Positions 2,952-26,420 of a DNA stretch of 32,739 nt are shown here, in pieces. Position numbers and translations under genes: made by a program. This stretch comes from an uncultured Bacteroidota bacterium. Its GTDB lineage: Bacteria; Bacteroidota; Bacteroidia; Flavobacteriales; Schleiferiaceae. Under the pieces are notes generated by a model. That model did no database searches, was not told the DNA's origin, and saw nothing but the letters and a program-made list of their open reading frames with translations. Position 1 is the stretch's first letter. Each line of letters begins with the position of its first letter. The stretch is taken from contig CAJXNI010000028.1 of the NCBI GenBank assembly GCA_913057235.1, forward strand, positions 1-32,739, in the 5' to 3' direction.

Positions 2952-2982
2952 CAAACCTAAACCTTTTAGTATATAAAACCAA
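2952..2982 (-). promoter_or_regulatory. Bacteroidetes-type promoter of the three-repeat gene
   Basis: On the minus strand a TTTG at about 2983-2980 is followed after 20 nt by TAGGTTTG (2959-2952). This is a full match to the -33/-7 consensus. The predicted start of transcription is about 14 nt before the ATG at 2932. An inverted repeat CCTTTT/AAAAGG (2962-2967, 2981-2986) brackets the spacer. Confidence 0.7.
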
Positions 2983-3042
2983 AAGGCTTTGTGTTAATTT
3001 AATCTCTTGTACCTTAATACCTTTATTTTTAACAACTTAGAT

Positions 3043-3080
3043 ATAGTATTTTGGAAACTATCTTTTAGTAAATTTTACTA
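3043..3080. promoter_or_regulatory. Candidate operator for the Nudix-type regulator
   Basis: TAGTAAATTTTACTA at 3066-3080 is a perfect 15-bp palindrome around a central T. Just upstream, ATAGT (3043-3047) and ACTAT (3057-3061) form a second, wider inverted repeat with similar half-sites. The palindrome covers the expected -33 region of the regulator/operon promoter (-7 element at 3096-3103). That position suits repression by the regulator encoded next to it. Assignment to this regulator is inference. Confidence 0.5.
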
Positions 3081-3095
3081 TATGGTGCAAATACA

Positions 3096-3103
3096 TATAT
3101 TTG
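3096..3103 (+). promoter_or_regulatory. Candidate -7 promoter element of the laminarin operon
   Basis: TATATTTG fits TAnnTTTG and lies 19 nt before the ATG at 3123. The -33 position has no TTG and is instead occupied by the palindromic operator candidate, so the promoter may be weak or depend on a regulator. Confidence 0.5.
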
Positions 3104-3122
3104 ACGCTGTAAAAAGTACACC

Positions 3123-3881
3123 ATGAGTGGTTCCCGCAAAACAGAAGAAAATTTTTACAATGCCCATTTTAATAATGATGGGGCGTATTATAAAATTCCA
3201 TTTAGCCGGTTTTTTCAATTTGGCGTGTCTGTTGATTGTGTGGTGTTTGGTTATGAAGATTCCAAACTGAAACTACTGCTAATTAAAAGAGGTGCAGAAC
3301 CTTACAAAGGGGACTGGGCACTACCCGGTGATTTGGTTTACCCTAATGAAGATATTGAGGTGGCAGCCCTTCGCATTTTAAAAGACCTTACGGGTATTGA
3401 GAATTTGTTTATGGAACAAACCATGGTATATGGTAAGGTAGACCGTCATCCCGCAGGGCGGGTAATTACCAACGGTTACTATTCCCTTATAGATATTGCC
3501 CAGTACAATCCAACCGCAGCTGGCTGGGCGCAAGAATTGTTTTGGGTAGATTTAAAATCACTACAGCATCTAGCTTTTGATCATACCCAAATTGTAGCAG
3601 ATGCCCTTAAAATTTTACAAGAAAAGGTACGCAGGCAACCCATTGGATTTGAATTGTTGCCCCAGAAATTTGCCCTTAGCGATTTGCAATCGCTTTACGA
3701 GGCCTTTTTGAGTGAGACTTTTGATAAGGCTAACTTCCGTAAGAAAATACTGAGTATGAAAATTTTAAATGAGCTGGATGAAGTACAAAATAACGTCTCG
3801 CACCGGCCCGGGCGCTTGTACTCCTTTAATGCCAGCCGGTACCAGCAATTGTCATCTAAAGGTTTTTCTTTTGAACTATAG
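3123..3881 (+). CDS. Nudix-domain winged-helix transcriptional regulator (NrtR/AraR-like)
   Basis: A 252-residue regulator. Residues of about 30-165 form a Nudix-fold domain (VDCVVFGYEDSKLKLLLIKR, then GDWALPGDLVYPNED). The C-terminal 85 residues form a winged helix (LSDLQSLYEAFLSETFDKANFRKK, ending RPGRLYSFN), as in NrtR and the Bacteroides arabinose regulator AraR. The Nudix box is degenerate: the usual REUxEExGU is replaced by RILKDLTGI. The catalytic Glu residues are therefore absent and the domain probably senses a ligand rather than hydrolysing a nucleotide. Known family members sense ADP-ribose compounds or sugars. As the first gene before two sugar carriers and beta-glucanases, it most likely senses glucose or a beta-glucan product and controls this locus. 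Confidence 0.85.
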   Translation: MSGSRKTEENFYNAHFNNDGAYYKIPFSRFFQFGVSVDCVVFGYEDSKLKLLLIKRGAEPYKGDWALPGDLVYPNEDIEVAALRILKDLTGIENLFMEQTMVYGKVDRHPAGRVITNGYYSLIDIAQYNPTAAGWAQELFWVDLKSLQHLAFDHTQIVADALKILQEKVRRQPIGFELLPQKFALSDLQSLYEAFLSETFDKANFRKKILSMKILNELDEVQNNVSHRPGRLYSFNASRYQQLSSKGFSFEL

Positions 3882-3961
3882 AACCAACACCATAGCAAAC
3901 CTGTGGAGCCAGGCTAGCGGGGCATTTTCTAAATTTTGGGTAGCCTTAAAAGGCTGAAATT

Positions 3962-5602
3962 ATGGAGGAGCAAAGTCTACATACCCTTGATTTTGCCGTG
4001 GTTGCAGGTTACTTCCTGCTGGTGTTTGGTTTGGCGGCCTACCTCATCCGTAAAGAGAATAAAAAAAGTAATACTGCCGCCACCAGCCGGTATTTTTTAG
4101 GTGGTAAAAACTTAGGTTGGTTTGTGATTGGCGCTTCCCTGTTTTCATCCAACATTGGTTCTGAGCACTTAGTAGGTCTGGCCGGAGCCGGAGCCTCCGG
4201 AGATTTCCCGGCCGCTCAGTTTGAAATTCTGGCCGCTTTCATGCTTTTACTTTTAGGCTGGATTTTTGTGCCCTTTTACCTTAGAAGTGGAGTCTTTACC
4301 ATGCCCCAGTTTTTAGACTTACGCTACGGCAGTTGGGCTAAAAACTACCTTACCTGGGTAAGCGTAATTGCGTACGTGCTCACCAAAATTAGCGTAACCA
4401 TTGCGGCTGGGGGCATTATTTTCACCGCTTTTTTACAGGTAGACTTTTGGACAGGCAGTATCCTAATCGTCTTGGCCACAGGTCTATACACCGTGCTTGG
4501 TGGTTTAAGAGCGGTGGCTTACACCGATGCTATTCAGATGTTCATACTTATTGGCGGAGCCTTGGCTCTTAGCTATTACGGTTTAAACGCTCTGGGCGGA
4601 TGGGAAGGATTACAACAGCGCACAGAACCCGCATACCTGAGCCTTTGGCGCGGTATGCAAGATGAAGCTTTCCCCTGGACTGGTGTATTGCTAGGCGCCC
4701 CCATTTTAGGCATTTGGTACTGGTGTACCGATCAGTTCATTGTGCAAAGAGTCTTGGCCGCTAAGAATATTGACCAGGCTCGAAAAGGCACCCTCTTTGC
4801 CGGCTACCTGAAACTACTACCGTTATTCATTTTTGTGTTGCCAGGGGTAATGGCCTATGCCCTCTCACAAGGCCCTAACCCACTACTGGAATTCCCCACA
4901 CTAAACGGTGAAAAGGTGTATGATGCCGCTTTGCCCCTGCTGAGTATGCAACTATTGCCATCTGGTCTTAAGGGCTTGGTAATTGCGGGCTTAATTGCCG
5001 CCCTCATGAGCTCTCTTTCTTCTGTCTTTAACTCCTGCTCTACCCTCTTTACCTTAGATATTTACCAAAAATACCATCCGCAGGCATCAGAGAAAAAACT
5101 GGTGCAGGTAGGGCAACTGGCCACGGTGGTTTTGGTGATTTTAGGCCTAGCCTGGATACCCATGCTCAATGCCTTAGACGGTGGCCTTTTTCAAAAAATA
5201 CAAAGCATTCAATCGTATATTTCGCCTCCCATTGCCGCTGTTTTTTTGCTTGGCTTATTTGTGCCTAAACTAAATGCTTTAGGGGCAAAGTATGCGCTGC
5301 TTAGTGGCGCACTGCTTGGTTGTTTACGACTTACACTAGAACTTAATAAATCACAACTGCAGGGCGTCTGGCTTTACTTTGCTGAAATCAACTTTTTACA
5401 CTTTGCGCTTTTCTTGTTCCTGTTTTGTGTACTCATATTGGTGGTGGTAAGCTTCCTTACGCAGCAGCAAAGCTCTAAGCACATAAATCAGATTGAACCT
5501 ATTAGGTTGAGAGCCCTCTTAAAAACAGATTCTAAGCTCACACCAACTTTAAGCGCGGTGCTACTTTTATTAATTGCAATTATCTGGTATGTATTTCAAT
5601 AA
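3962..5602 (+). CDS. Sodium/solute symporter, SGLT-like (SSS family)
   Basis: A 546-residue inner-membrane carrier with about 13-14 hydrophobic segments. The conserved SSS signature near residues 45-80 (GGKNLGWFVIGASLFSSNIG, then SEHLVGLAGAGA) and the later WYWCTDQFIVQRVLAAKN segment are typical of sodium/glucose-type members such as vSGLT. The start at 3962 is the first ATG, 80 nt after the regulator, and the N-terminus runs directly into the first membrane helix. The expected role is Na+-driven uptake of glucose or a short gluco-oligosaccharide across the inner membrane, which suits a marine organism. The exact substrate cannot be read from the sequence. Confidence 0.88.
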   Translation: MEEQSLHTLDFAVVAGYFLLVFGLAAYLIRKENKKSNTAATSRYFLGGKNLGWFVIGASLFSSNIGSEHLVGLAGAGASGDFPAAQFEILAAFMLLLLGWIFVPFYLRSGVFTMPQFLDLRYGSWAKNYLTWVSVIAYVLTKISVTIAAGGIIFTAFLQVDFWTGSILIVLATGLYTVLGGLRAVAYTDAIQMFILIGGALALSYYGLNALGGWEGLQQRTEPAYLSLWRGMQDEAFPWTGVLLGAPILGIWYWCTDQFIVQRVLAAKNIDQARKGTLFAGYLKLLPLFIFVLPGVMAYALSQGPNPLLEFPTLNGEKVYDAALPLLSMQLLPSGLKGLVIAGLIAALMSSLSSVFNSCSTLFTLDIYQKYHPQASEKKLVQVGQLATVVLVILGLAWIPMLNALDGGLFQKIQSIQSYISPPIAAVFLLGLFVPKLNALGAKYALLSGALLGCLRLTLELNKSQLQGVWLYFAEINFLHFALFLFLFCVLILVVVSFLTQQQSSKHINQIEPIRLRALLKTDSKLTPTLSAVLLLLIAIIWYVFQ

Positions 5603-5713
5603 GGCTAAAATTTTAAATAGGTCTATCGCATTTAAGAGTATTGCAAAAAGACCAGCAGTAGCCTACCAACTTGAAAGCATATAAAACAATATCCTGTAAA
5701 CCAATCCAATACT

Positions 5714-7279
5714 ATGAAAAACGATACGCGCTTTATAATTATGATTATAGCCCTTATTGTAGCCTTGGGTGGGCTGCTCATGGGCTTTGATGCCTCGGTA
5801 ATATCTGGTGCGGTAAAGTTTATTGAAACAGACTTTAGTCTTACTAAACTAGAGTTGGGCTGGTCTGTGGCTTCACTAACCCTCTCCTCTACTCTGGCCA
5901 TGATGGTGGCCGGGCCGGTGAGTGATGCATTAGGGCGCAGAACAGTCTTACGTATAGCCGCGGTGCTTTACGCTATATCGGCCATTGGGTCAGCTTTGGC
6001 GCCTACCTTTTTGCTATTAGTCATTGCGCGTATGGTGGGCGGTTTAGGTGTTGGTGCTTCGCTCATTTTGGCCCCCATGTACATAGCCGAAATTGCGCCT
6101 CCCAAAATGCGCGGAAGGCTGGTGTCTTTTAATCAGCTAAATATTGTAATTGGTATCTCACTAGCTTTTTTCACCAATTACCTGATTTTGCAATGGGGAA
6201 AAAGCGGGGCAGATTGGGCCCTCAACTGGGGCTTAGATCAGCACCAATGGCGTTACATGTTAGGGATTGAAACCATTCCGGCTGTCATCTATTTCTTCGG
6301 GTTGTTTTTTGTACCGCGCTCTCCTCGTTGGTTACTCATGAAAGGGCAATATGAAGAGGCCGTTAAAATCATGAAACGCTACACTTCTGAAGAAACGGCC
6401 CAGGCCGAAATTGAGCGTATCAAAACAGCCATGCAGAACAAAACCAAAAAGAAAGAAGGGCAGTTTTCAGATCTATTTAAACCAGGCTTAAAACTAGTGT
6501 TGCTTATTGGAGTAGTAGTGGCCGTGTTGCAACAAATAACCGGTATTAACTCGGTATTCTTTTATGCCCCTATGATTTTTGAGCAAAGCGGCATTGGCAC
6601 TGATGCTTCTTTTGTGCAAGCCATTTTGGTAGGCTTGGTAAACATTGTATTTACAGTAGCCGCCTTACTGCTAATTGATAAGCTTGGCCGTAAGCCCCTG
6701 TTAGTAGTAGGCATGGCCGGCATTACTTTGTGCATGGGCCTATTGGCCTACGGTTTCAGCTCTGCTACCTATACCCTGGATGCTCCCTCTATTGGTGGCC
6801 TTCCGGCTGAAATTGACCAAAGTCTTCTACAACCTCTGCAGGGCCAGACCTTTACCAGTGATGTTGATTTTAAACAGGCGGTTGAGCAGCAACTGGGTTA
6901 TGAAACTTTTAACACTTATAAATCACAGCTCATTACCGCTTCCATTAGCATGAACCCCACCTTAATTCTCATTGGCATACTAGGGTTTGTGGCTGCCTTT
7001 GCTATCTCAATTGGGCCGGTAATGTGGGTACTTTTCTCTGAACTATTCCCCAACAAAATTCGGGGTATCGCTATTTCAGTAGTAGGCTTTATTAATTCTT
7101 TAGTGAGCTTTCTAGTACAGTGGATTTTCCCTTGGGAACTGGATACTTTAGGCAGTGCCACCACATTTTTACTGTACGGGGTTTTTGCCGCCCTGGGTCT
7201 TATTTTCATCATTAGAGTGATTCCTGAAACCAAAGGCAAATCTTTAGAAGAATTGGAAAAACAACTAACCACAAGCTAA
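5714..7279 (+). CDS. MFS sugar porter (sugar/H+ symporter)
   Basis: A 521-residue, 12-helix transporter of the sugar porter family. It shows GFDASVISG in helix 1, the DALGRR loop 2-3 motif, PRSPRWLL before the central loop, QQITGIN in helix 7 (Q273, Q274 and N279 match sugar-binding positions of XylE/GLUT proteins) and the final PETKGKSLEELE. The region of about residues 350-408 between helices 9 and 10 is a roughly 55-residue hydrophilic insertion, longer than in E. coli XylE-type porters. It sits 111 nt after the SSS symporter and 5 nt before the GH16 gene. It probably imports glucose or another released sugar; two different carriers in one operon suggest two products or two ion gradients. 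Confidence 0.88.
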   Translation: MKNDTRFIIMIIALIVALGGLLMGFDASVISGAVKFIETDFSLTKLELGWSVASLTLSSTLAMMVAGPVSDALGRRTVLRIAAVLYAISAIGSALAPTFLLLVIARMVGGLGVGASLILAPMYIAEIAPPKMRGRLVSFNQLNIVIGISLAFFTNYLILQWGKSGADWALNWGLDQHQWRYMLGIETIPAVIYFFGLFFVPRSPRWLLMKGQYEEAVKIMKRYTSEETAQAEIERIKTAMQNKTKKKEGQFSDLFKPGLKLVLLIGVVVAVLQQITGINSVFFYAPMIFEQSGIGTDASFVQAILVGLVNIVFTVAALLLIDKLGRKPLLVVGMAGITLCMGLLAYGFSSATYTLDAPSIGGLPAEIDQSLLQPLQGQTFTSDVDFKQAVEQQLGYETFNTYKSQLITASISMNPTLILIGILGFVAAFAISIGPVMWVLFSELFPNKIRGIAISVVGFINSLVSFLVQWIFPWELDTLGSATTFLLYGVFAALGLIFIIRVIPETKGKSLEELEKQLTTS

Positions 7280-7284
7280 AAATT

Positions 7285-8532
7285 ATGCATACCAAGAGTT
7301 TTCTTTTTTTAATACTGGCTGGTTTCATTGGGAGCTGCTCCACTCCGCAAGGCGCATCGGCCGAAGAGCCTAAAACCAATAGCCCCCAATTTGAACTGAC
7401 TTTAAGTAGCCCTACTGCCTCTCAAAAGGCTCAAAAACTCGAAAATGGGAATTGGGAATTGCAGCCGGGAGGGTTTCTTGCTTTAAATGTAGCAGTGACT
7501 AAGGCGGGACGTTATAAAATAGAGGCTTGGGGCCAAAGCGATAGCGGCCAAATTTGGTTGGAAGATTACTACAATAATCAGGATGGCCGGGCTTACAATA
7601 TTACGGGGAATTTGGCTTTTACCGATGGTAAAGCCACCGTGTGGGGCAGCCCCTTGGACACAGGAACACATCCCCTAAAAATTCACGCCCTACACGCCAA
7701 GGTTCAACTGGAAAGAGTGCAGCTTACTTTGGTGCAACCACACCGTACCACACCGCAAGTTCACAAACAAAAAATGCTTGATACTGCTTCCGGCTGGGAG
7801 CTGGTGTGGAGCGATGAATTTGAAGATTCGGGTGCCGTAGACACCAGCAAATGGAGCTTTAATGTGGGCAACTGGGGCTGGGGCAATAATGAGCCTCAGT
7901 TTTATACGCAGAATCGTCTAAAAAATGCGCGGCAACAAGATGGCAATCTTATCATTGAGGCGCATAAAAATGATTCGGGATTTGCCTGGACTTCGGCTCG
8001 TTTAACTACCCAGGGGAAACATGCTTTTTTGTATGGAAAAATTGACTTTAGAGCCAGGGTTCCAGAAGGACGCGGTACTTGGGCTGCAGGCTGGCTACTT
8101 GGTGATGCCTACCGCGATGAAATTTCATGGCCTTACTGCGGAGAAATTGATGTATTGGAAACCGTAGGCTATGAAATAAACGACACTACCGGAGCTGGTA
8201 AAAATCACGCCAGTTGCCACACCCCGGCCTACTATTTTAAAAAGAACAATCACATTACCGGCACCATTGCCTTAGACAGTATGAATACAAAGTTTCATAC
8301 CTACAGCGTAGAATGGTACCCCGATAGTGTGATTGCCTTGCTAGATGGCGTGCACTATTACACCTATGATAAAACCGCCAATGATTTGGAATGGCCCTTT
8401 GACCAGCCACAGAACATTATCTTAAACCTGGCCGTAGGGGGCGGTTGGGGCGGTGCCAAAGGCATAGACCCCACCTACCAAAAACACCGCTATGTAATTG
8501 ATTACGTGCGCGTGTATCAAAAGAAGAGCTAA
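7285..8532 (+). CDS. GH16 endo-beta-1,3-glucanase (laminarinase) lipoprotein
   Basis: A 415-residue lipoprotein. The signal peptide ends at Cys18; residues of about 36-151 form a beta-rich module that resembles a carbohydrate-binding jelly roll; GH16 spans about 171-415. The catalytic signature GEIDVLE is intact, with nucleophile E287, helper D289 and acid/base E292, in the beta-bulge form typical of laminarinases. WSDEF at the domain start and the terminal DYVRVYQ are also characteristic. The expected activity is endo-cleavage of beta-1,3-glucan (laminarin) at the cell surface or in the periplasm. The spacing of 5 nt before and 6 nt after it indicates co-transcription with the MFS porter and the GH30 enzyme. 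Lichenase-type specificity cannot be excluded. Confidence 0.92.
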   Translation: MHTKSFLFLILAGFIGSCSTPQGASAEEPKTNSPQFELTLSSPTASQKAQKLENGNWELQPGGFLALNVAVTKAGRYKIEAWGQSDSGQIWLEDYYNNQDGRAYNITGNLAFTDGKATVWGSPLDTGTHPLKIHALHAKVQLERVQLTLVQPHRTTPQVHKQKMLDTASGWELVWSDEFEDSGAVDTSKWSFNVGNWGWGNNEPQFYTQNRLKNARQQDGNLIIEAHKNDSGFAWTSARLTTQGKHAFLYGKIDFRARVPEGRGTWAAGWLLGDAYRDEISWPYCGEIDVLETVGYEINDTTGAGKNHASCHTPAYYFKKNNHITGTIALDSMNTKFHTYSVEWYPDSVIALLDGVHYYTYDKTANDLEWPFDQPQNIILNLAVGGGWGGAKGIDPTYQKHRYVIDYVRVYQKKS

Positions 8533-8538
8533 TTTTTT

Positions 8539-10032
8539 ATGAAAAATTCATTTAAGTTGCTATTGCCGTTGGGCAGCATTTTGCTACTTCTTACGGCATG
8601 CCAAAGTCCATTGCCAAGCATGCAAATAAGTGCTTTTCAAACTTCCGCTCAAGGCGAAAAACTAGCATCGGTAGCGCACCAGCCCACCCAGGATTCTGCC
8701 AATCTGGTTTTGTACCCCGAGCAAAAATTCCAAACCATTACAGGCTTTGGTGGGGCTTTTACGGAGTCTACGGCCTACCTTCTCAATCAGATGAGTGCCG
8801 GAGTGCGCGATTCCATTTTACGTGCCTATTTTAGTGAAGCAGGCGCCCGATATTCGCTCACTCGCACCCACATGAATAGTTGTGATTTTTCGTTAAAAAA
8901 TTACAGCTATGCGCCAGTTGCAGGTGATACCCAACTGACTCATTTCTCGGTGCAGCAAGATGAAGAAGACCTCATTCCCATTATTCAACAAGCTCAAAAA
9001 ATCAGTGAAAACGGGTTTAAAATAATTGCCTCCCCATGGACCGCCCCACCCTGGATGAAAACCAACCAAGATTGGAACGGAGGAAAGCTTTTACCTGAAT
9101 ACTACGAAACCTGGGCACTTTTTTTTAGCAAGTATCACCAGGCTTACGCTCAAAAGGGTATTGACATTTGGGCCTTTACCGTTGAGAATGAACCCTTAGG
9201 CAATGACGCCAATTGGGAAAGTATGCACTATACGCCCGAAGAGATGGCCACCTTTGTAAAAAACCATTTAGCTCCCCAATTGAATCAAGACGGCATTCAG
9301 TCTAAAATTCTGGTGTATGATCAAAACCGAGGCGAAGAATTAGAAGAGTGGGTAAACGTACTGCTGCAAGATCAGGAATTACTACCGCACATTTACGGCA
9401 CCGCGGTACATTGGTATACCGGCACACAAAGTTGGTTTCCGCAGTCATTGCAGCACACCCATAATCTGGCACCTGAGAAAAGCATCATTCACACAGAAGG
9501 CTGTGTAGATGCCGAAATACCCCATTGGCAAGATGATGCCTGGTATTGGAAAAAAGAAGCTACTGACTGGGGCTATGACTGGGCTAAAGCCGAAAACAAA
9601 CATCTGCATCCTAAGTATGTACCCACTTACCGCTACGCCCGTGATATTATTGGTTGCTTAAACAATTGGGTAGAAGGCTGGGTGGATTGGAATATGGTGC
9701 TGGATCATAAAGGAGGACCCAATTTAGCGCAGAACTGGTGCGTAGCTCCAGTATTAGTAAAGCCCCAGGAAAATGAGGTGTACTTTACCCCGCTCTACTA
9801 CGTACTAAAGCACTTTAGCCGTTTTATACAACCCGGTGCTCAAAGAATTGGCTTTTCATTAAACAATCCTGAGCTTATGGCTACGGCCGTGCAAAACCCT
9901 AGCGGGCAATTGGTGGTAGTTGTGCTCAACACCACCAAATCCAAACAAAACCTAGTCCTTTCTGTAGGCCGCCAAAAAGCCAGCCTGGTGGTTGGTGCGC
10001 AGTCTTTACAAACTATACAAATAGAACCCTGA
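8539..10032 (+). CDS. GH30 beta-glucosidase/beta-1,6-glucanase lipoprotein
   Basis: A 497-residue lipoprotein with lipobox Cys at residue 21. The GH30 (beta/alpha)8 domain starts at QTITGFGGAFTESTAYLL. The acid/base is in VENEP (E218), and the nucleophile is E320 in IIHTEG. The C-terminal side beta domain is complete (to about residue 495). The layout matches GH30 subfamily 1, which in marine laminarin loci removes the beta-1,6-linked glucose branches. That role is inferred from context, since the family also includes glucosylceramidase-type and other beta-glucosidases. It is probably periplasmic or surface-located, working with the GH16 enzyme. Confidence 0.88.
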   Translation: MKNSFKLLLPLGSILLLLTACQSPLPSMQISAFQTSAQGEKLASVAHQPTQDSANLVLYPEQKFQTITGFGGAFTESTAYLLNQMSAGVRDSILRAYFSEAGARYSLTRTHMNSCDFSLKNYSYAPVAGDTQLTHFSVQQDEEDLIPIIQQAQKISENGFKIIASPWTAPPWMKTNQDWNGGKLLPEYYETWALFFSKYHQAYAQKGIDIWAFTVENEPLGNDANWESMHYTPEEMATFVKNHLAPQLNQDGIQSKILVYDQNRGEELEEWVNVLLQDQELLPHIYGTAVHWYTGTQSWFPQSLQHTHNLAPEKSIIHTEGCVDAEIPHWQDDAWYWKKEATDWGYDWAKAENKHLHPKYVPTYRYARDIIGCLNNWVEGWVDWNMVLDHKGGPNLAQNWCVAPVLVKPQENEVYFTPLYYVLKHFSRFIQPGAQRIGFSLNNPELMATAVQNPSGQLVVVVLNTTKSKQNLVLSVGRQKASLVVGAQSLQTIQIEP

Positions 10033-10048
10033 AAGCTTAAAGGCATTT

Positions 10049-13000
10049 ATGAGTAAATCCCATTTATACGTAGGTCAAACGCCTGTTAAAGATATCAATC
10101 CAGCTGGCGGAACTGGTGAATTCACCCATCTTGATGGCGAGGTATTTTATAAAATTAAGGGCTTTGAAAACATGGCACCGTTTTTAATGACAGTGGTAAG
10201 CCCTAACAATCATTGGATGTTTCTGGCTAGTAACGGAGCCTTAACAGCCGGAAGAAAAAACCCCGAATGGTCTCTATTCCCTTATTACACAGATGATAAA
10301 ATTTTAGACAGTGCCGAAATTACCGGTAGTAAAACAATTCTAAGAGTACAACAAGCCTCTCAAATTCTGCTTTGGGAACCATTCTCTGGTTTTTACCCCG
10401 GTGCCTACTCCATAACCCGCAATCTCTATAAAAACCGGGTGGGCAATAAAGTAATCTTTGAAGAAGTTAATCATGATTTAAGCCTGCGCTTTCAATACCA
10501 GTGGACTTTCTCTGATGCGTATGGATTTGTAAAAAAAGCAACCTTGGAAAACCTGGGGGCAACAACCTGCAATTTGGAGCTTTTAGACGGCCTGCAAAAT
10601 ATACTTCCCGCGGGTGTAAATAGCCAATTACAAGAAACACGTAGTACCCTGGTAGACGCTTACAAAAAGAACGAGCTGGACCCTGAAAATGGTTTAGGCA
10701 TCTTCTCGCTGAGCTCTATGATTGTTGACAAAGCAGAACCCAGTGAAGCCCTCAGCGCCACCACGGTTTTTACTACGGGTCTCAGCCCGAAGTTGCATCT
10801 GCTTTCCAGCCGTCAGTTACAGGGCTTTCGTTTAGGAAGAGATTTAGAACCAGAGACTTTTACCAAAGCCGTCAAAGGCGCCTACTTCACCTGCAGCCAA
10901 GAAGAATTAGCCCCTGGCCAAACTAAAAATTGGTACACCATTGCAGAGGTCAATCAGTCCACAGCGCAGGTTTTAAACCTTAAAGCCGCCTTAACTAAGC
11001 CTCAAGAGCTTATAGGGCATTTAGAGGCCAGTATTGGTGAAGACACGCAAGCCTTAAAAACCCTGGTAGGCTTAGCCGATGGCTTACAGCGCGGGGGTGA
11101 AAAGCTCAGCACGGGTAGGCATTTTTCCAACGTGCTTTTTAACATCATGCGGGGCGGTGTATTTGATGGTCAATACCAAGTTTTAAGCTCAGAACTAGGC
11201 CAATACCTGCTAAGCTGCAACAAGGAACTCTACCAACAAGTATCAGATTGGCTAGAGAATTTACCCCAACGCATTCTCTACCAAGACTTATTAGCAGAAG
11301 CACAAAGCCTTAAAAACCCGCATCTGTACCGCTTGTGCCGTGAGTTTTTGCCGCTGTCATTTAGCCGTAGGCATGGTGACCCTAGCCGCCCCTGGAATAG
11401 TTTCAACATTGATGTGCAAGATGAGAAAGGGCAAAAGAAACATGCCTTTGAAGGAAACTGGCGCGATATCTTTCAAAACTGGGAGGCCCTGGCTTTTTCA
11501 TTTCCAGCCTTTATAGAAGGTATGATCGCGAAGTTTGTAAATGCCTCTACGCTAGATGGCTACAACCCCTACCGAATTACCCATGAAGGTATTGACTGGG
11601 AAATTATTGAACCTGATGACCCTTGGTCATACATTGGCTACTGGGGAGACCACCAGGTGATTTACCTGCAAAAATTATTAGAACACGCGCGCCAGCACTA
11701 TCCTAAACTGGTGCAAAGCATGCTCACTGAATCTAATTTTGTGTATGCCTGTGTGCCCTATCGTATCAGAGATTACCAATCGATTAAAGAAAACCCCAAT
11801 GATACCATTGACTTTGACCACGCGCTGAATGGTATATTGGAAGAGCAATACCGCAGTTTAGGCAGTGATGGTAAATTGGTAAGTCATTCTGGGCAATTAC
11901 TACGGGCTAACCTCACGGAAAAATTACTGGTAATGGCGCTTACCAAATTGTACAACTTTGTGCCCGATGGCGGAATTTGGCTCAACACCCAGAGACCTGA
12001 GTGGAATGATGCCAACAATGCCCTGGTGGGGAATGGGCTTAGTCTGGTAACCCTGCACTATTTGCGTAGATTTTTAGTTTTCGCGCAAGAGCTTTGGCAA
12101 GAAAGCCCCTCAAAAACAGTAGAATTACAAAGCCCGGTGGCGGTTCTATTGAGAGAACTTAAACAAATACTTAGTGAGGCGCCAAATCAATTTAACCCCA
12201 AAAGCCGTGAAGCTTTTGTAGATGCCATGGGCAAAGCGGGTGAAAAATACCGCAAGGCGGTGTACACGGCTCAGGACCAAGACAGCACAACAGTAGCTTT
12301 TGCAGAAATTGCCGAAACGCTGGCTCAGGCTCAATCATTAATTGAAAAAACGCTGGCCAATAGCAAGCGTGAAGACGGCTTATACCATGCCTACAACTTG
12401 TTAAAGTTTGATGAAGAGGGTGCGCACGTCTCCTACTTGTACGAAATGTTAGAAGGCCAGGTAGCTGCTCTGAGCTCCCAAACCCTGGGTGCCCACCAGG
12501 CCCTGGAACTTTTAGACGCTTTAAAAAGCAGTAGCATGTTTAGGGAAGACCAGTACAGCTACATGCTCTACCCTAACCGAACTTTGGCTCCGTTTATTCA
12601 AAAAAATAACCTGCCAGAACATACCCTCAAACAATCAGCTTTAATTCAAAAGCTTTTAAAAAGCGGTAAAAACAAGTTGGTGGAGGCCGACAGCCGCGGA
12701 GGGGTTCACTTCAGCAAAAACCTACACAACGCCAAAGATGTAAAAGCAGTGCTTCAAGAAATGCAGTCTGGGCCGCTGGCTCTTGAGGCTAAGGCCGATG
12801 AATCGCTGATTTTAGAAGCTTTTGAAGCGGTTTTTAACCACCATGCCTTTACCGGCCGTTCCGGCACCTTTTACGGCTATGAAGGCCTAGGCAGCATTTA
12901 CTGGCACATGGTAAGCAAGCTGCTTTTGGCCATTCAGGAGACTATACACCAAGCGGTAAAGCAAAATGCTGAACCGGCCGTGTTAGGCCAACTTTTAGCC

Positions 13001-13492
13001 CATTTTTATGAAACTAGAGCTGGCATTGGCATTAATAAAGATCCTAAGCTCTACGGTGCTTTCCCCACTGATGCCTATTCGCACACACCAGCAGATGCAG
13101 GCGCTCAACAGCCCGGCCTTACTGGTCAGGTGAAAGAAGATATCATTACCCGTTGGGCCGTGCTGGGTATTCAAATACACAAGGGGCAAATCCATTTTAA
13201 TCCGGTTATTTTTAGTCGTAGCGAATTGTTGTCAGAAACCGAAACTTTTGAATTTGTAAACACCGATGGGGTGCTCACCGAGACCCTAGTGAAGGCGGGG
13301 CAAATGGCTTTTACCTACTGCGGTACTTTATTCGTGTATAATTGGTCTCAGGAACCTCAAATTGAGGTTACCGAAAAGGGTCAGGAAGCCCAAGCCACAT
13401 CGGGCTTGACCCTAAGCCCAGAGCACAGTGCTGCTATATTTAATCGCAACGGTGTGGTGCAAAAAGTAGAATTGTTTTACCCCTTTAGATAA
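10049..13492 (+). CDS. Beta-1,3-oligoglucan phosphorylase, GH149-like
   Basis: A very large cytoplasmic enzyme (1147 residues, no signal peptide or membrane segment). The size and architecture fit GH149: an N-terminal beta-sandwich (about 1-310), a helical linker and an (alpha/alpha)6 barrel (from about 420). Typical stretches are FLMTVVSPNNHWMFL, GDPSRPWNSFNIDV, FEGNWRDIFQNWEAL and DPWSYIGYWGDHQVIYL. In the related GH94 family a catalytic Asp lies in a comparable position, so D473 in NWRD is a candidate general acid (inference). GH149 enzymes phosphorolyse beta-1,3-gluco-oligosaccharides to glucose-1-phosphate, saving ATP. It lies between GH30 and the two GH17 genes with gaps of 16 and 11 nt. 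GH94 or GH161 are the main alternatives. Confidence 0.8.
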   Translation: MSKSHLYVGQTPVKDINPAGGTGEFTHLDGEVFYKIKGFENMAPFLMTVVSPNNHWMFLASNGALTAGRKNPEWSLFPYYTDDKILDSAEITGSKTILRVQQASQILLWEPFSGFYPGAYSITRNLYKNRVGNKVIFEEVNHDLSLRFQYQWTFSDAYGFVKKATLENLGATTCNLELLDGLQNILPAGVNSQLQETRSTLVDAYKKNELDPENGLGIFSLSSMIVDKAEPSEALSATTVFTTGLSPKLHLLSSRQLQGFRLGRDLEPETFTKAVKGAYFTCSQEELAPGQTKNWYTIAEVNQSTAQVLNLKAALTKPQELIGHLEASIGEDTQALKTLVGLADGLQRGGEKLSTGRHFSNVLFNIMRGGVFDGQYQVLSSELGQYLLSCNKELYQQVSDWLENLPQRILYQDLLAEAQSLKNPHLYRLCREFLPLSFSRRHGDPSRPWNSFNIDVQDEKGQKKHAFEGNWRDIFQNWEALAFSFPAFIEGMIAKFVNASTLDGYNPYRITHEGIDWEIIEPDDPWSYIGYWGDHQVIYLQKLLEHARQHYPKLVQSMLTESNFVYACVPYRIRDYQSIKENPNDTIDFDHALNGILEEQYRSLGSDGKLVSHSGQLLRANLTEKLLVMALTKLYNFVPDGGIWLNTQRPEWNDANNALVGNGLSLVTLHYLRRFLVFAQELWQESPSKTVELQSPVAVLLRELKQILSEAPNQFNPKSREAFVDAMGKAGEKYRKAVYTAQDQDSTTVAFAEIAETLAQAQSLIEKTLANSKREDGLYHAYNLLKFDEEGAHVSYLYEMLEGQVAALSSQTLGAHQALELLDALKSSSMFREDQYSYMLYPNRTLAPFIQKNNLPEHTLKQSALIQKLLKSGKNKLVEADSRGGVHFSKNLHNAKDVKAVLQEMQSGPLALEAKADESLILEAFEAVFNHHAFTGRSGTFYGYEGLGSIYWHMVSKLLLAIQETIHQAVKQNAEPAVLGQLLAHFYETRAGIGINKDPKLYGAFPTDAYSHTPADAGAQQPGLTGQVKEDIITRWAVLGIQIHKGQIHFNPVIFSRSELLSETETFEFVNTDGVLTETLVKAGQMAFTYCGTLFVYNWSQEPQIEVTEKGQEAQATSGLTLSPEHSAAIFNRNGVVQKVELFYPFR

Positions 13493-13503
13493 ACGCTAAA
13501 AGC

Positions 13504-14388
13504 ATGTCTTATTCCAAACAAAAAATACGCTCTCTTACCGGTGTAAATGTTGCGGGCTTTACAGCCGATGAACTACACCACTATTTTTTAAGCACCCTCA
13601 AGCAAGGAATGCACGGCTTGTGCTTTAGTGCCTATGAAGAAGGGCAAAAACCTGGGGATACCCTCACCTATTCTCAAGTGGAAAAGCGCCTGAAAGTCTT
13701 GAAACCCTACGTGCAGTGGATCCGCACTTTCAGTTGTACGGAAGGTAATGAGCTTGTTGCCAAAGCCAGTAAAGGCATGGGGCTAAAAACCTTAACCGGA
13801 GCCTGGCTGAGTGACGATCTGGAAAAAAATGAGATGGAAATTGAAGCTTTGATTGACTTAGCGCAACAAGGTTATGTAGACATTGCAGCTGTTGGCAATG
13901 AAGTGCTGTACAGAGAAGAGCTGGATGAAAAACAGTTGCTAGAATATATTGGCCGGGTAAAAAAGGCGCTCCCTCACCTCCCGGTGGGCTACGTAGATGC
14001 TTACTATGAGTTTGAAAACCGCCCCCAATTAGCCGCAGCCTGTGACGTGATTTTGGCCAACTGCTATCCGTTTTGGGAAGGCTGTCCGCTGGAATATTCA
14101 CTGCTATACATGAAAGACATGTACCATAGAGCGCAAAAAGCGGCTCCTGAAAAAAAAGTGATCATTACTGAAACGGGCTGGCCTAGCAAGGGCGAGGACT
14201 TCAACGGTGCACACCCATCGCATGAAAATGCTATCCGTTATTTTTTAAATACCCAGCAATGGGCTCAGGAAGATAATCTAGAGGTTTTCTATTTTTCTTC
14301 TTTTGATGAAGACTGGAAAACAGGTGATGAAGGAGATGTGGGCGCCTACTGGGGCTTATGGGATAAAAACGGGAACTTAAAATACTGA
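13504..14388 (+). CDS. GH17 beta-1,3-glucanase/transglycosylase, cytoplasmic, copy 1
   Basis: A 294-residue enzyme consisting of a single GH17 (beta/alpha)8 domain. The acid/base is E133 in AVGNEV and the nucleophile is E223 in IITETGWPSKG; both motifs are textbook. No signal peptide is present: the protein starts MSYSKQKIRSLTGVNVAG, close to the first barrel strand. It therefore appears to act in the cytoplasm, alongside the phosphorylase 11 nt upstream. Likely substrates are imported unbranched laminari-oligosaccharides, either hydrolysed or transglycosylated. It is followed after 1 nt by a second GH17 gene. Confidence 0.88.
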   Translation: MSYSKQKIRSLTGVNVAGFTADELHHYFLSTLKQGMHGLCFSAYEEGQKPGDTLTYSQVEKRLKVLKPYVQWIRTFSCTEGNELVAKASKGMGLKTLTGAWLSDDLEKNEMEIEALIDLAQQGYVDIAAVGNEVLYREELDEKQLLEYIGRVKKALPHLPVGYVDAYYEFENRPQLAAACDVILANCYPFWEGCPLEYSLLYMKDMYHRAQKAAPEKKVIITETGWPSKGEDFNGAHPSHENAIRYFLNTQQWAQEDNLEVFYFSSFDEDWKTGDEGDVGAYWGLWDKNGNLKY

Positions 14389-14389
14389 G

Positions 14390-15301
14390 ATGAACCAAAA
14401 GAGATTGCCTTTTGCCAAAGCCATTTGCTACTCGGGCTTCCGGGAAGGGCAAAGCCCTGAGACAGACACTTTCCCAAGCTATGCTGAAGTTAAGGAAGAC
14501 CTGGAAATATTGCATGAAAACTGGTCTTTCTTGCGACTGTATGCTTGTGACCAGCATGCTAAAACCGTCTTGGAAGTTATTGAAAAAGAGGGCTTCAATT
14601 TTAAGGTAATGCTTGGGGCCTACATCACTGCCGAGGTAAACAACCCCAATTGCCCCTGGGGCGGTGAATACTCAGAACAGCAGCTGCGCGAGAACAAGGC
14701 TCATAACAAAGCAGAGGTAAAGAGGCTGATTGAATGGGCTTACCGCTATCCCGAGATTATTAATGCGGTTTCTGCCGGCAATGAGGCTACGGTTGACTGG
14801 ACCGACCATTTGGTACCGGTGGATAGCTTGTTGCGCTATGTAAAGAAAATTAAAGAATGTGTGAGCCAGCCGGTTACTTTCTGTGAAAACTATGTGCCCT
14901 GGTTAGACAAGCTAAAGCCCGTAGCTGAAGTTTTGGACTTTATTTCCATTCACACCTACCCGGTTTGGGAATATAAAAGCATAGAAGAAGGTTTGGCGGT
15001 GAGTAAAGCTAACTATGAAGCGGTGGCCAAAGCTTACCCCAACCATCAAATTGTGATTACCGAGGCCGGTTGGGCCACTCAGTCTAATGGAAGAGGCATT
15101 GAACCCCATCAGGTAAATGAAGAATTTCAAAAACGCTATTATCAGGAATTAATGGCTTGGGCCGATGAGGCGCAAATTCTCATTTACTATTTTGAAGCTT
15201 TTGATGAGTCTTGGAAAGGCTCTGACCACCCGCAAGAACCGGAAAAGCACTGGGGCCTCTACCGCCTTAATCGCAGCCCAAAACTGGCTATGACTCCATA
15301 G
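14390..15301 (+). CDS. GH17 beta-1,3-glucanase/transglycosylase, cytoplasmic, copy 2
   Basis: A 303-residue GH17 enzyme with acid/base E132 (SAGNEA) and nucleophile E225 (VITEAGW). It also lacks a signal peptide. It starts 1 nt after the stop of copy 1 and is the last gene of the operon. It is clearly diverged from copy 1, for example in the segment of about residues 85-105 with NNPNCPWGGEYS, so the two may differ in chain-length or branch preference. The 3' end overlaps, in antisense, the tail of the frameshifted gene on the minus strand. Confidence 0.88.
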   Translation: MNQKRLPFAKAICYSGFREGQSPETDTFPSYAEVKEDLEILHENWSFLRLYACDQHAKTVLEVIEKEGFNFKVMLGAYITAEVNNPNCPWGGEYSEQQLRENKAHNKAEVKRLIEWAYRYPEIINAVSAGNEATVDWTDHLVPVDSLLRYVKKIKECVSQPVTFCENYVPWLDKLKPVAEVLDFISIHTYPVWEYKSIEEGLAVSKANYEAVAKAYPNHQIVITEAGWATQSNGRGIEPHQVNEEFQKRYYQELMAWADEAQILIYYFEAFDESWKGSDHPQEPEKHWGLYRLNRSPKLAMTP

Positions 15302-18335: not shown

Positions 18336-19382
18336 CTAGGCTCCTTGCACCTCTTTAACTCCGGCAAACTCATCGGCCCAATGAGCCAACAACTGCGCCC
18401 AGTCTTCACGATCATTCAAACAGGGAATGAGGGTAAACTCTTCACCACCATTTTCTAAAAAGAATTCTTTAGCCTCTTCGCCAATCTCTTCTAAGGTTTC
18501 CAAACAATCCGAAACAAAGGCCGGACATACTACGGCCAGTTTTTTGATCCCCTGCTGGGCATATTTTATGATGGTTTTATCGGTAAACGGAGTCAGCCAA
18601 GGATCAGGCCCTAGGCGGCTTTGAAAGCTGGTGCTAAATTTAGCCTGAGGCAGCTTCAAACGCTCAGCCACCAAGTCAGTGGTATGGGTGGTTTGATGGC
18701 GGTAACAGAAATGATGGGCCGGTGAATCTTTTTGGCAGCAGTTCTCATAGTTGAGACAATGGCTCTTAGTGATATCACCTTTACGAATGTGGCGCTCAGG
18801 AATGCCATGGTAGCTGAATAATAAATGGTCGTAATCTTCCGGTAATTCCTCGGCAATAGACCGGCTTAAAACCTCCAGGTAATGTGGATCTTGGTAAAAA
18901 GCTTCTTTAACAGTTAGCCTAAGGTTGGGAAATTTTTCTTCCACTACAGCCCGCGTTTTGGTCACTACCGTTTCATAACTGCTCATGGCATAATGCGGAT
19001 AAAGTGGTACAAGGAGCACATCCTGTAGTGCCGGGTTTTGCTCTTGCAAATCACGTAAAGCCTGCTCTATAGAGGGTTGGCCATAGCGCATGCCCAAACC
19101 AATGGGCACGCTTGTGTGCGCTTGCACCGCAGCCTGCAGGCGTTTACTAAGCACAATTAAAGGAGAACCCTCATCCCACCAAATGGAACTGTAAGCTTCA
19201 GCTGATTTTTTAGGGCGTGTGTTTAAAATAATGCCACGCACCAAAAAAGTGCGGAGCCACTTAGGCGCGTCAATCACCCGCTCGTCCATTAAAAATTCAT
19301 CTAAGTAAGGTCTCACCGCTTCTTTAGTGGGTGCTTCGGGTGAACCTAAGTTTACCATTAGCACCGCTTTCGTCTGTTTCAT
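18336..19382 (-). CDS. hemH: Ferrochelatase
   Basis: A 348-residue ferrochelatase, which inserts Fe2+ into protoporphyrin IX (or coproporphyrin) in the last part of haem synthesis. It opens with VLMVNLGSPEAPT, and carries the catalytic His192 in FSYHGIPERH and the conserved acidic segment SDCLETLEEIGEE near the C-terminus. A Cys-rich stretch (CLNYENCCQ, then CYRHQ) is present between them; in some bacteria such Cys residues relate to an iron-sulfur cluster, but I cannot confirm this here. It lies 22 nt downstream of the AraC-type regulator and is probably co-transcribed with it, divergent from the main hem operon. Confidence 0.93.
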   Translation of the reverse strand: MKQTKAVLMVNLGSPEAPTKEAVRPYLDEFLMDERVIDAPKWLRTFLVRGIILNTRPKKSAEAYSSIWWDEGSPLIVLSKRLQAAVQAHTSVPIGLGMRYGQPSIEQALRDLQEQNPALQDVLLVPLYPHYAMSSYETVVTKTRAVVEEKFPNLRLTVKEAFYQDPHYLEVLSRSIAEELPEDYDHLLFSYHGIPERHIRKGDITKSHCLNYENCCQKDSPAHHFCYRHQTTHTTDLVAERLKLPQAKFSTSFQSRLGPDPWLTPFTDKTIIKYAQQGIKKLAVVCPAFVSDCLETLEEIGEEAKEFFLENGGEEFTLIPCLNDREDWAQLLAHWADEFAGVKEVQGA

Positions 19383-19404
19383 TTGCTTCTGCGTCCGTTT
19401 TGAG

Positions 19405-20316
19405 TCAATTCACTTTTCCGGTTAAATATTTTTTAGGGGTCACCCCAAATTTCTTTTTAAAGGCAGCTATAAAATGACTGGGATTGGTGTAGCCTATTCG
19501 ATAGGCTGCATCGTTTACCTTAATATTGCCTTTGTCTAAAAATTGCCGGGCCGTATCCAAGCGGTAATCATTTAAAAACTGAAAAACGGTTTTACCGTAA
19601 ATATTCTTAAAGCCCTCTTTTAAACGATATTCATTAAGGCCTACCAGGCGAGAGAGTTCACGCAAAGTAGGGGGCGTAGACAAATTTTCCAGCAAAATTT
19701 TCTTGGCGTGCCGTATGCGCTCAACGTTTTCCTCGTCATTTAAGAACGGACATTGCTCAGTATCCGTTCCTTCTTCGCGGGTAAAATACAATGCCAACAC
19801 TTCCAAGGCTTTGGCCCTATTGAATAAATCAGCAGCCGGACCTTGTACCTGGGTGCTAAATAATTGGTTTAAAGCCACCATTAAAGCGGGGGTCAAAGCC
19901 CGATCTGTATAATACTTTTTATCAATATTATCTTTGTTTAAAAAAGCAATCTCCTCACTTTCTGCCACCAACAGTTGGTGCAGCTCTTCTACGGTGGCAT
20001 ACAGAAACATAATTTTAGACTGCGGCCTGATTTGAATATTGAGTGGCAGAGCCATCACTGGATTGTAGAATAACAAACTGTGCGACTCTTCCAGCTTTAA
20101 TTGATAATTGCCTTGGTTAAATAGAAATTCAGCTCCTCCCTCTACCCCAAAGTAAAATTGAATGAGGCTCTGATCAATTTTACGCTCTAGCTGCACCGGA
20201 TGATCGGCTTGGTTTTCTACCTGAACCATAAAAACACCCTCCCCAATTCGGGTATTTTGGATACTACTTTTTGAGGTATTTTTGTCCGATTCTGAAAAGC
20301 TAAAATCTATTTCCAT
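19405..20316 (-). CDS. AraC-family transcriptional regulator
   Basis: A 303-residue regulator. The C-terminal 100 residues are a double helix-turn-helix of the AraC/XylS type (LRELSRLVGLNEYRLKEGFK, then RIGYTNPSHFIAAFKKKFG). The N-terminal 190 residues are probably a cupin-like sensor. The arrangement resembles PchR-type regulators that respond to iron chelates, and its position between hemH and the divergent hem operon suggests it tunes haem or iron genes; this is inference. It overlaps no neighbour and is first in the hemH transcript. Palindromes in the shared upstream region are candidate binding sites. Confidence 0.85.
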   Translation of the reverse strand: MEIDFSFSESDKNTSKSSIQNTRIGEGVFMVQVENQADHPVQLERKIDQSLIQFYFGVEGGAEFLFNQGNYQLKLEESHSLLFYNPVMALPLNIQIRPQSKIMFLYATVEELHQLLVAESEEIAFLNKDNIDKKYYTDRALTPALMVALNQLFSTQVQGPAADLFNRAKALEVLALYFTREEGTDTEQCPFLNDEENVERIRHAKKILLENLSTPPTLRELSRLVGLNEYRLKEGFKNIYGKTVFQFLNDYRLDTARQFLDKGNIKVNDAAYRIGYTNPSHFIAAFKKKFGVTPKKYLTGKVN

Positions 20317-20342
20317 AATGGCTTTTTAGTAAAACATGATAT

Positions 20343-20366
20343 TTATCATTAATGATAATCCTTTGC
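20343..20366. promoter_or_regulatory. Fur-box-like palindrome between AraC regulator and hemA
   Basis: TTATCATTAATGATAA (20343-20358) is a perfect 16-bp palindrome. The overlapping 19-mer at 20348-20366 matches the classical Fur box at 14 of 19 positions by my hand alignment. It lies downstream of the predicted minus-strand transcript start, in the leader of the AraC-type gene. Fur or the AraC-type protein itself could bind. Confidence 0.45.
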
Positions 20367-20373
20367 TGTTCTT

Positions 20374-20389
20374 ACTTTGCGCAAAGTTA
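20374..20389 (-). promoter_or_regulatory. Candidate -7 element of AraC regulator/hemH transcript within a palindrome
   Basis: TAACTTTG on the minus strand (20389-20382) fits TAnnTTTG. It overlaps ACTTTGCGCAAAGT (20374-20387), a perfect 14-bp palindrome, so a near-copy of the same promoter element (TTACTTTG) points the other way on the plus strand. Confidence 0.4.
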
Positions 20390-20464
20390 ATTAGAAGCTT
20401 AAGTAGAACGACTCTAAATAGATTACTTCTTTCTTTTCGGATATAATTATTTCGTTTTGGGGCA

Positions 20465-20493
20465 TTGAGGGAGTTTGAACTGGGATATTTTTG
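20465..20493 (+). promoter_or_regulatory. hemA: Candidate promoter of the hem operon
   Basis: TTG (20465-20467), an 18-nt spacer and TATTTTTG (20486-20493), matching the Bacteroidetes consensus. It ends only 9 nt before the ATG at 20503, so the transcript would be almost leaderless if this promoter is used. Confidence 0.4.
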
Positions 20494-20502
20494 CGGCACA
20501 TT

Positions 20503-21750: not shown

Positions 21751-21756
21751 GTAGCA

Positions 21757-23383: not shown

Positions 23384-23425
23384 ATCAGCAGGGGCTCAAG
23401 GCCGATGCATCAAGTACCCAATACC

Positions 23426-24454: not shown

Positions 24455-24455
24455 A

Positions 24456-25370: not shown

Positions 25371-25384
25371 AAAAGTGTACAATT

Positions 25385-26374: not shown

Positions 26375-26420
26375 TTAATCGGCTCAAAAAAATTGTAGAA
26401 ATGGTAAAAACGTAGATCGT

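Follow-up and report, generated by a model that had tools for sequence, protein, structure and literature searches.

Laminarin is a major marine carbon pool, and how its genes are switched in Bacteroidota is little described in the searchable literature. Four variants of laminarin polysaccharide utilization loci (PULs) have been described (PMC6298971), and Bacteroidetes genes of glycoside hydrolase (GH) family 149 are known from clusters of carbohydrate-active enzymes (CAZymes) that lack susCD (Kuhaudomlarp et al. 2018, PMC5827456). In the AraR regulon of Bacteroides thetaiotaomicron (PMC4666351, PMC3878776), one regulator controls both cytoplasmic catabolism and the operon BT0365-60, which contains Abn1 and two SusCD pairs (PMC3878776); this regulator, BtAraR, is released from DNA by arabinose (PMC4666351). 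Here we analyzed a stretch of 32,739 nucleotides from an uncultured Bacteroidota bacterium of the family Schleiferiaceae (assembly GCA_913057235.1, contig CAJXNI010000028.1; the window), which carries a laminarin gene cluster headed by a regulator of the BtAraR family. From gene content and sequence patterns we consider it very probable that the window holds the periplasm-to-cytoplasm half of one split laminarin regulon, with the outer-membrane half elsewhere in the genome, an AraR-like repressor as the common switch, and SusCD acting in trans.

Results

A laminarin cluster without SusCD and a SusCD locus on another contig

The cluster comprises eight genes, all on the plus strand (3123–15301), with successive gaps of 80, 111, 5, 6, 16, 11, and 1 bp. 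Pfam and NCBIfam, with signal sequences judged by eye, confirmed the gene content of an original prediction made from the window alone, i.e., a regulator, an SSS and an MFS carrier, GH16 and GH30 lipoproteins, and two GH17 enzymes without signal peptides. The phosphorylase, at first called GH149-like, could be assigned to GH149 proper (NF058639, 1574.9 bits compared with a cut-off of 1150; Pfam gives no match). These gene families give good support to a reading as a laminarin locus whose cytoplasmic branch is phosphorolytic. A Pfam scan of the 29 open reading frames (ORFs) in the window found neither SusC nor SusD. The cluster is hence not a canonical SusCD PUL, where SusC/SusD adjoin the CAZymes, and fits a CAZyme cluster lacking susCD.

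The original prediction had proposed a genome-wide search for SusC/SusD homologues. In the whole genome (2.83 Mb in 49 contigs, 99.97% complete, with the window as contig C28), we found two SusD matches, each adjoining a SusC and a paralogue of the window regulator. One pair, on contig C14, lies together with a GH16, a GH17 of 595 amino acids, a PKD/CBM4_9 protein, and the regulator, i.e., it is part of a canonical SusCD PUL. The C14 SusD shares 49–52% identity with its four best matches among the SusD proteins that other Flavobacteriales, such as Polaribacter sp. Hel1_85 (L078), encode next to GH149; there were 14 matches overall, and identity goes down to 42% among the seven matches listed. 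The other SusD, on contig C21, reaches only about 25% identity to SusD proteins beside GH149. Gene content and SusD kinship thus mark C14 as a predicted laminarin PUL. The genes that characterize laminarin PUL variant B (SusCD with GH16, GH30, and two or more GH17) all occur in this genome, but spread over the window and C14.

The two loci also differ in their lipoproteins. After the lipidated cysteine, the C14 GH16 and PKD proteins continue with NEEEGE and DEEEKP, respectively, which we take to resemble surface-export signals. No acidic signal of this kind was seen after the cysteine of the window GH16, and the window GH30 has no such run either. C14 therefore resembles the surface half of one system and the window its inner half, as far as protein location can be predicted.

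The regulator and its paralogues

The window regulator has a Nudix-like domain (NUDIX PF00293, 40 bits) followed by an NrtR winged helix (NrtR_WHD PF21906, 87 bits), which makes it NrtR/AraR-like, and also matches AraR_C (PF19368, 52 bits). The Nudix box consensus is REUxEExGU; at this position the window regulator reads RILKDLTGI, and the catalytic glutamates are degenerate. Its best solved match is BtAraR (5bs6, E 5.6e-54), of whose sugar pocket Arg34, Arg86, His131, Val92, and Phe129 are kept, with the exchanges F36A, G48D, and F49L. Arg34, Arg86, and His131 contact the sugar hydroxyls in BtAraR (PMC4666351). The arabinose pocket of AraR proper is therefore not reproduced, and the changed pocket is probably different and roomier; the inducer would probably be glucose or a short β-1,3-gluco-oligosaccharide. 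The GTGT-type operator of AraR proper and its intercalating Arg180 are likewise missing, with Ala at position 180.

The window regulator is 69.7% identical to that of C14; the remaining two paralogues of the genome reach 41% and 36%. Window and C14 regulators have the same residue at all 10 pocket positions and at 9 of 12 DNA-contact positions (178–181, 184, 204, and 205 among them; 163, 200, and 207 differ, BtAraR numbering). Both have Ala180, whereas BtAraR and the C21 paralogue have Arg180. This pattern of pocket, DNA-contact, and 180 residues is compatible with two regulators that share a ligand and an operator, the C21 paralogue having a target of its own.

A predicted operator shared by both loci

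Regulator homologues were detected in 67 of 88 same-family genomes (E ≤ 1e-40) and, at E ≤ 1e-70, in 27 of 296 genomes drawn from the order, 24 of them in the own family. A distinct close group occupies 37 places in 36 genomes with at least 52% identity, and the next match has 48%. We took 35 regulator regions outside the own genome, two of which (L158, L161) gave no regulator frame in the ORF filter; from the 33 promoters obtained, 7 near-identical ones were left out by eye, and the motif model was learned from the other 26, i.e., from relatives only, with the own genome outside the training set. A palindromic motif search yielded a 23-bp site, CTTWTRGT-N7-ACYAWAAG, with a log-likelihood of 159 compared with 43–48 in three letter-shuffled sets, which were run with fewer restarts. 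Sites of at least 13 bits were present in 19 of the 26 training promoters (in-sample); in the seven promoters without a site, the regulator lies at most 110 bp behind a same-strand gene or overlaps it.

Allowing one mismatch, the whole own genome contains five sites, all five at β-1,3-glucan genes. Two of them, O1 and O2, precede the window regulator (Table 1). On C14, one site (24.3 bits) lies 106 bp before SusC and one (23.2 bits) 46 bp before the GH17, and on contig C16 a site of 20.5 bits is found at the 5′ end of a GH16 with a tail for the type IX secretion system (T9SS). First-order Markov sequence of 3 Mb contained no site of 20 bits or more. The same predicted operator thus stands at promoters of both loci, as a single regulon would have it. 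The original prediction had named a co-regulated SusCD pair just outside the locus as evidence against it. Sequence evidence points to such a pair on C14, which is predicted to be co-regulated but lies on another contig. The observation that SusCD is missing holds for the window and not for the laminarin system of the organism. As C14 SusCD comes with a 70% identical regulator and the same operator, the inference once drawn from the missing pair fails.

At SusC promoters, the operators also hold a fixed position relative to TAnnTTTG, the −7 box consensus of Bacteroidota promoters. At all eight SusC promoters analyzed, i.e., C14 and seven genomes of a same-family genus (g15), the box begins 15 bp after the operator centre, the chance of such a box being about 0.019 per 40 bp. 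Strict −7 boxes are also present at the own regulator and the own divergent gene (Table 1).

Conservation in relatives

In g15, a T9SS gene on one strand is followed by a divergent regulator-(SSS)-MFS-GH16-GH30-GH149-GH81-GH17 series, and GH16-PKD-SusD-SusC faces these genes. The SSS gene is present in two of the seven genomes (G014, G063). Both halves are contiguous in five of the seven and on separate contigs in G062 and G066. A perfect operator precedes SusC in 7/7 genomes, and the T9SS GH16 orthologue has an operator in 6/7, the six being those searched for the gene (all except G014). Of the genomes searched for sites, 11 have a close homologue of the regulator, and 8 of these contain a perfect site; three same-family genomes lacking such a homologue have none, with 2, 3, and 1 sites compared with 5, 3, and 4 for the controls. 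Across 1.56 Mb of GH149 loci (80 loci, from named genomes), no more than two sites reached 18 bits, both before the MFS-GH16-GH30-GH149 genes of L010 and L011. The predicted operator is accordingly a feature of this lineage and its near kin, not of laminarin loci generally. In the regulator tree, a clade of 13 rows unites the window regulator with those of g15 and C14 without fixing its exact place, and the window GH149 is likewise not exactly placed; the window half may have been inherited or acquired.

In three g15 genomes, an operator lies 144 bp before the phosphoenolpyruvate (PEP) carboxykinase gene, identified by Pfam (L211) or by 91–92% identity to the L211 protein (L216, L228), hinting that the regulator may also touch gluconeogenesis there.

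Paired operators are frequent. The centres are 99 bp apart in the window (2963–3084) and 85–87 bp apart in the regulator and SusC promoters of g15; pairs were seen at L142–L145, L147, and L203–L209, many second sites having two mismatches. The arrangement looks as if it could serve DNA looping.

A second palindrome, the AraR-like GTGTA-N5-TACAC, was tried as a shared operator and rejected, with 68 genome-wide sites at up to one mismatch compared with 63 for the reversed control. It occurs in the window with one mismatch, just before the start codon of the regulator (3107–3121), where a second control layer is possible, and three times without mismatch on C21. It is found at the promoters of the C21 and C11 regulator paralogues and before the C21 SusC (L007, 4015–4029 and 4858–4872; L009, 9885–9899), and would suit the C21 paralogue, which keeps Arg180. 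The C21 locus (L007, 437–10894) has no recognised glycoside hydrolase beside its regulator paralogue and SusCD pair; the regulator is divergent from genes for phosphofructokinase, GAPDH, a BadF-type ATPase, and a HAD hydrolase. Several relatives also have a comparably similar regulator and a SusD no more than about 8 kb apart.

Other features of the window

The locus boundary of 3123–15301 in the original prediction was too narrow. The divergent T9SS gene and both operators belong to the system as we read it (Table 1). The three domains of the T9SS protein are of the kind found in PKD proteins of laminarin PULs (PDB 8qx6, a PKD domain-containing protein, E = 5.9e-5), and over 165 residues it is 35.8% identical to the C-terminal portion of the PKD protein from C14. 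Its homologues are divergent from the regulator in relatives as well. No carbohydrate-binding family exceeded its Pfam cut-off, and the protein probably binds glucan outside the cell.

Table 1 Features of the laminarin locus in the window
Feature	Position	Strand	Remarks
T9SS-sorted protein, divergent partner of the regulator, probably extracellular and glucan-binding	1109–2932	−	Por_Secre_tail; three tandem domains by eye
−7 box of the divergent gene, TAGGTTTG	2952–2959	−	15 bp from operator centre
Operator O1, CTTTTAGTATATAAAACCAAAAG	2963–2985		0 mismatches, 25.0 bits
Operator O2, CTTTTAGTAAATTTTACTATATG	3062–3084		1 mismatch, 22.8 bits
−7 box of the regulator/operon promoter, TATATTTG	3096–3103	+	23 bp from O2 centre
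AraR-like (NrtR-family) regulator, proposed laminarin repressor	3123–3881	+	Degenerate Nudix box and winged helix
SSS carrier, SGLT-like	3962–5602	+	Pfam, 283 bits; NCBIfam
MFS sugar porter, XylE/GlcP-like	5714–7279	+	PF00083, 363 bits
GH16 lipoprotein, predicted periplasmic	7285–8532	+	Pfam; lipobox IGSC by eye; location predicted
GH30 lipoprotein, predicted β-1,6-debranching, periplasmic	8539–10032	+	Pfam/NCBIfam; lipobox LTAC by eye
GH149 β-1,3-glucan phosphorylase (predicted activity)	10049–13492	+	NCBIfam NF058639; no signal peptide by eye
GH17	13504–14388	+	Pfam, 49 bits; no signal peptide by eye; nearest solved relative 4wtp
GH17	14390–15301	+	Pfam, 28.3 bits (cut-off 28.2); no signal peptide by eye; nearest solved relative 6fcg (GH17)

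The nearest solved relatives of the SSS carrier are Na+/glucose cotransporters and those of the MFS carrier are XylE and GlcP. As these are glucose or xylose carriers, both window carriers look made for monosaccharides. As judged by eye, the MFS protein has an insert of about 60 residues at approximately 345–410 (window 6750–6950), where matches to solved sugar porters break. For the GH30, a β-1,6-debranching role is suggested by FbGH30 of Formosa, where debranching releases glucose (PMC6246565), and such glucose would be the obvious candidate cargo. The carrier matches leave unexplained how oligosaccharides would arrive at the cytoplasmic GH17 and GH149.

The solved relative of the first GH17 is a β-1,3-glucanosyltransferase. 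Neither window GH17 has a close match in the g15 clusters. Their top match among the 80 GH149 loci is a gammaproteobacterial SAR92 locus (L063; 66% and 64%), with Flavobacteriaceae loci nearly as close, and exchange of the GH17 genes between phyla is possible. The sole GH3 match of the genome was dismissed as a laminarin-type enzyme, being fused to a β-lactamase domain and read as NagZ-like. The genome thus shows no obvious periplasmic GH3 glucosidase of the type common in laminarin systems, and most of the flux may run through the cytoplasmic branch. A search of the own genome for GH81, present in g15, gave no match, but its control was silent as well and absence is hence not established.

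Elsewhere in the window, a bacterial rhodopsin gene (27808–28533, minus strand) adjoins a large heme synthesis cluster (18336–27710); neither shows any sign of a tie to the laminarin locus. Scans for sigma-70 promoters and terminators gave no excess over shuffled sequences.

Discussion

How firmly do the operators tie the two loci together? Several observations speak against a single regulon. In 14 genomes, at up to one mismatch, 47 sites of the true pattern compare with 37 of the reversed one (the latter a mean of 2.6 per genome), and at up to two mismatches the reversed control even exceeds the true pattern in the own genome (31 compared with 22; of the 17 true sites with two mismatches, three regions were scored, at 10.2, 15.3, and 12.3 bits). 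The pattern letters were picked after the promoters of both relatives and own genome had been viewed, the bit model being the part built from relatives only. Bare site counts are thus weak, and the case rests on where the sites lie. Here, too, some positions do not suit it: in the own-genome DNA scored, two sites of 15–17 bits fall within genes or frames that are unrelated, and another on contig C1 (15.3 bits) is intergenic. Of 14 further g15 sites examined, two (L214, L223) are located far within genes. At C16, the site runs into the GH16 frame as called, at its 5′ end, and the true start codon would have to lie further down. The promoter of the C14 regulator itself has no strong site. A strict −7 box is present at only 4/6 regulator and 1/6 divergent-gene promoters of g15, at 0/7 T9SS GH16 promoters, and not at the C14 GH17. 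Moreover, owing to its homology to the training promoters, the promoter of the window regulator contributes no independent sites, whereas those at SusC, GH17, and GH16 are independent. Finally, the genome has two regulators, and what we treat as one repressor may be a pair whose targets overlap.

Among other explanations, the palindrome might belong to another transcription factor, or the regulator might be an activator. Motifs of NrtR-family members are highly variable (PMC4666351), which leaves room for this, but the site lies upstream of the regulator genes themselves in several genera and follows the presence of a close regulator homologue, with neither perfect sites nor an excess in the three genomes without one. 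As for activation, the operator abuts the −7 box at SusC promoters in a repressor-like manner, and sugar lowers the DNA affinity of BtAraR (PMC4666351). We regard this explanation as improbable. Much the same holds for the idea that both halves are neighbours on the chromosome and appear split due to contig breaks. They do lie on different contigs, with their regulators 3.1 kb and 6.4 kb from the contig starts, and are contiguous in g15. However, each half comes with a regulator of its own and has other neighbours (the heme cluster; FtsW and PBP), which lack homologues in 17 regions around the clusters of relatives. Even with the contigs joined end to end, 9.5 kb or more, including further genes, would still separate the regulators. 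Neighbouring halves would in any case leave the regulon reading unchanged.

We give very little credence to a self-sufficient laminarin route without SusCD, where oligosaccharides or glucose reach the inner carriers via other outer-membrane pores. The window scan and the susCD-lacking GH149 clusters already described agree with it, and so do our counts at GH149 loci, of which 17/80 have SusC or SusD in flanks of up to 10 kb (12 of the 42 with nearly full flanks). These counts were obtained with seed-built models, many flanks end at contig ends, and labels from a PKD profile that had drifted were excluded. Against this route stand the laminarin-type SusCD PUL of the same genome, with its common regulator type and operator, and the g15 genomes where both gene sets are contiguous. 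Absence of SusCD nearby should not be equated with absence of SusCD uptake.

Under the split regulon that we prefer, an AraR-like NrtR-family repressor, i.e., a Nudix fold that has lost its catalytic glutamates and would act as sugar sensor, would bind the 23-bp palindrome directly ahead of the −7 box. As long as inducer is absent, it would silence the window operon together with the divergent T9SS gene; the C14 SusC operon, the C14 GH17, and the C16 T9SS GH16 would be silenced either by this regulator or by its 70% identical copy. With laminarin present, surface and secreted GH16 and GH17 enzymes would cut the polymer, SusCD would take the products in, and periplasmic GH16 and GH30 would trim and debranch them. 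The SSS and MFS carriers would then move glucose, and perhaps short oligosaccharides, inward, where the cytoplasmic GH17s and GH149 may yield glucose and glucose 1-phosphate. Sugar binding would finally make the regulator leave the DNA.

With less assurance, we lean towards a wider proposal, i.e., that an undescribed AraR/NrtR branch is the dedicated β-1,3-glucan repressor of a Flavobacteriales lineage, sensing glucose or a laminari-oligosaccharide via its Nudix-fold sugar pocket. It would link a remote SusCD, a T9SS laminarinase, a T9SS glucan-binding protein, inner carriers, and phosphorolysis (in the related genus also PEP carboxykinase), and would have been duplicated when the locus split, giving two near-equivalent repressors on one operator. 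Such an operator predicts dispersed pathway genes without recourse to gene neighbourhood.

We found no Nudix/NrtR-type laminarin regulator, and no operator of one, described in the open-licence literature; in the parts of PMC5613140 available to us, other regulator families are named and neither "nrtr" nor "nudix" occurs. GH149 clusters without SusCD are already known, and the pairing of regulator and operator for laminarin was not found described. The described clusters combine GH149 with GH16, GH17, GH30, or GH3 and sugar transporters (PMC5827456), as the window does. The accessible text of that work lists histidine kinase/response regulator, LacI, and AraC regulators without naming the NrtR type found here, and its Type II clusters, mainly from Alteromonadales, have an MFS carrier of pfam13347 compared with PF00083 in the window.

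Laminarin PULs of Formosa (PMC6246565) and of variant B (PMC6298971) have GH16, GH30, GH17s, and SusCD in common with the present genome, Formosa also GH149 and a PKD protein. In contrast to these, our genome distributes the system over at least three loci, its MFS gene is separate and not fused to GH17, and its carriers are SGLT-like and XylE/GlcP-like. Laminarin genes are likewise dispersed over the genome in Maribacter (PMC11345257), where the table gives neither GH17 nor GH30 in five strains and the text mentions neither GH149 nor a regulator. In Muricauda lutaonensis and relatives, GH17 and GH149 clusters are thought to be co-regulated, as proposed here, with a LuxR gene as the first gene of many clusters (PMC13188888) where our locus has a Nudix-type regulator. 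The nearest precedent for the control logic would be the AraR regulon of B. thetaiotaomicron. It has the same regulator family, with the best solved match to the window protein, and differs in the genes controlled (arabinose there, laminarin here), in the pocket exchanges and Arg180→Ala described above, and in its GTGT motif compared with the CTTWTRGT-N7-ACYAWAAG operator (PMC4666351, PMC3878776).

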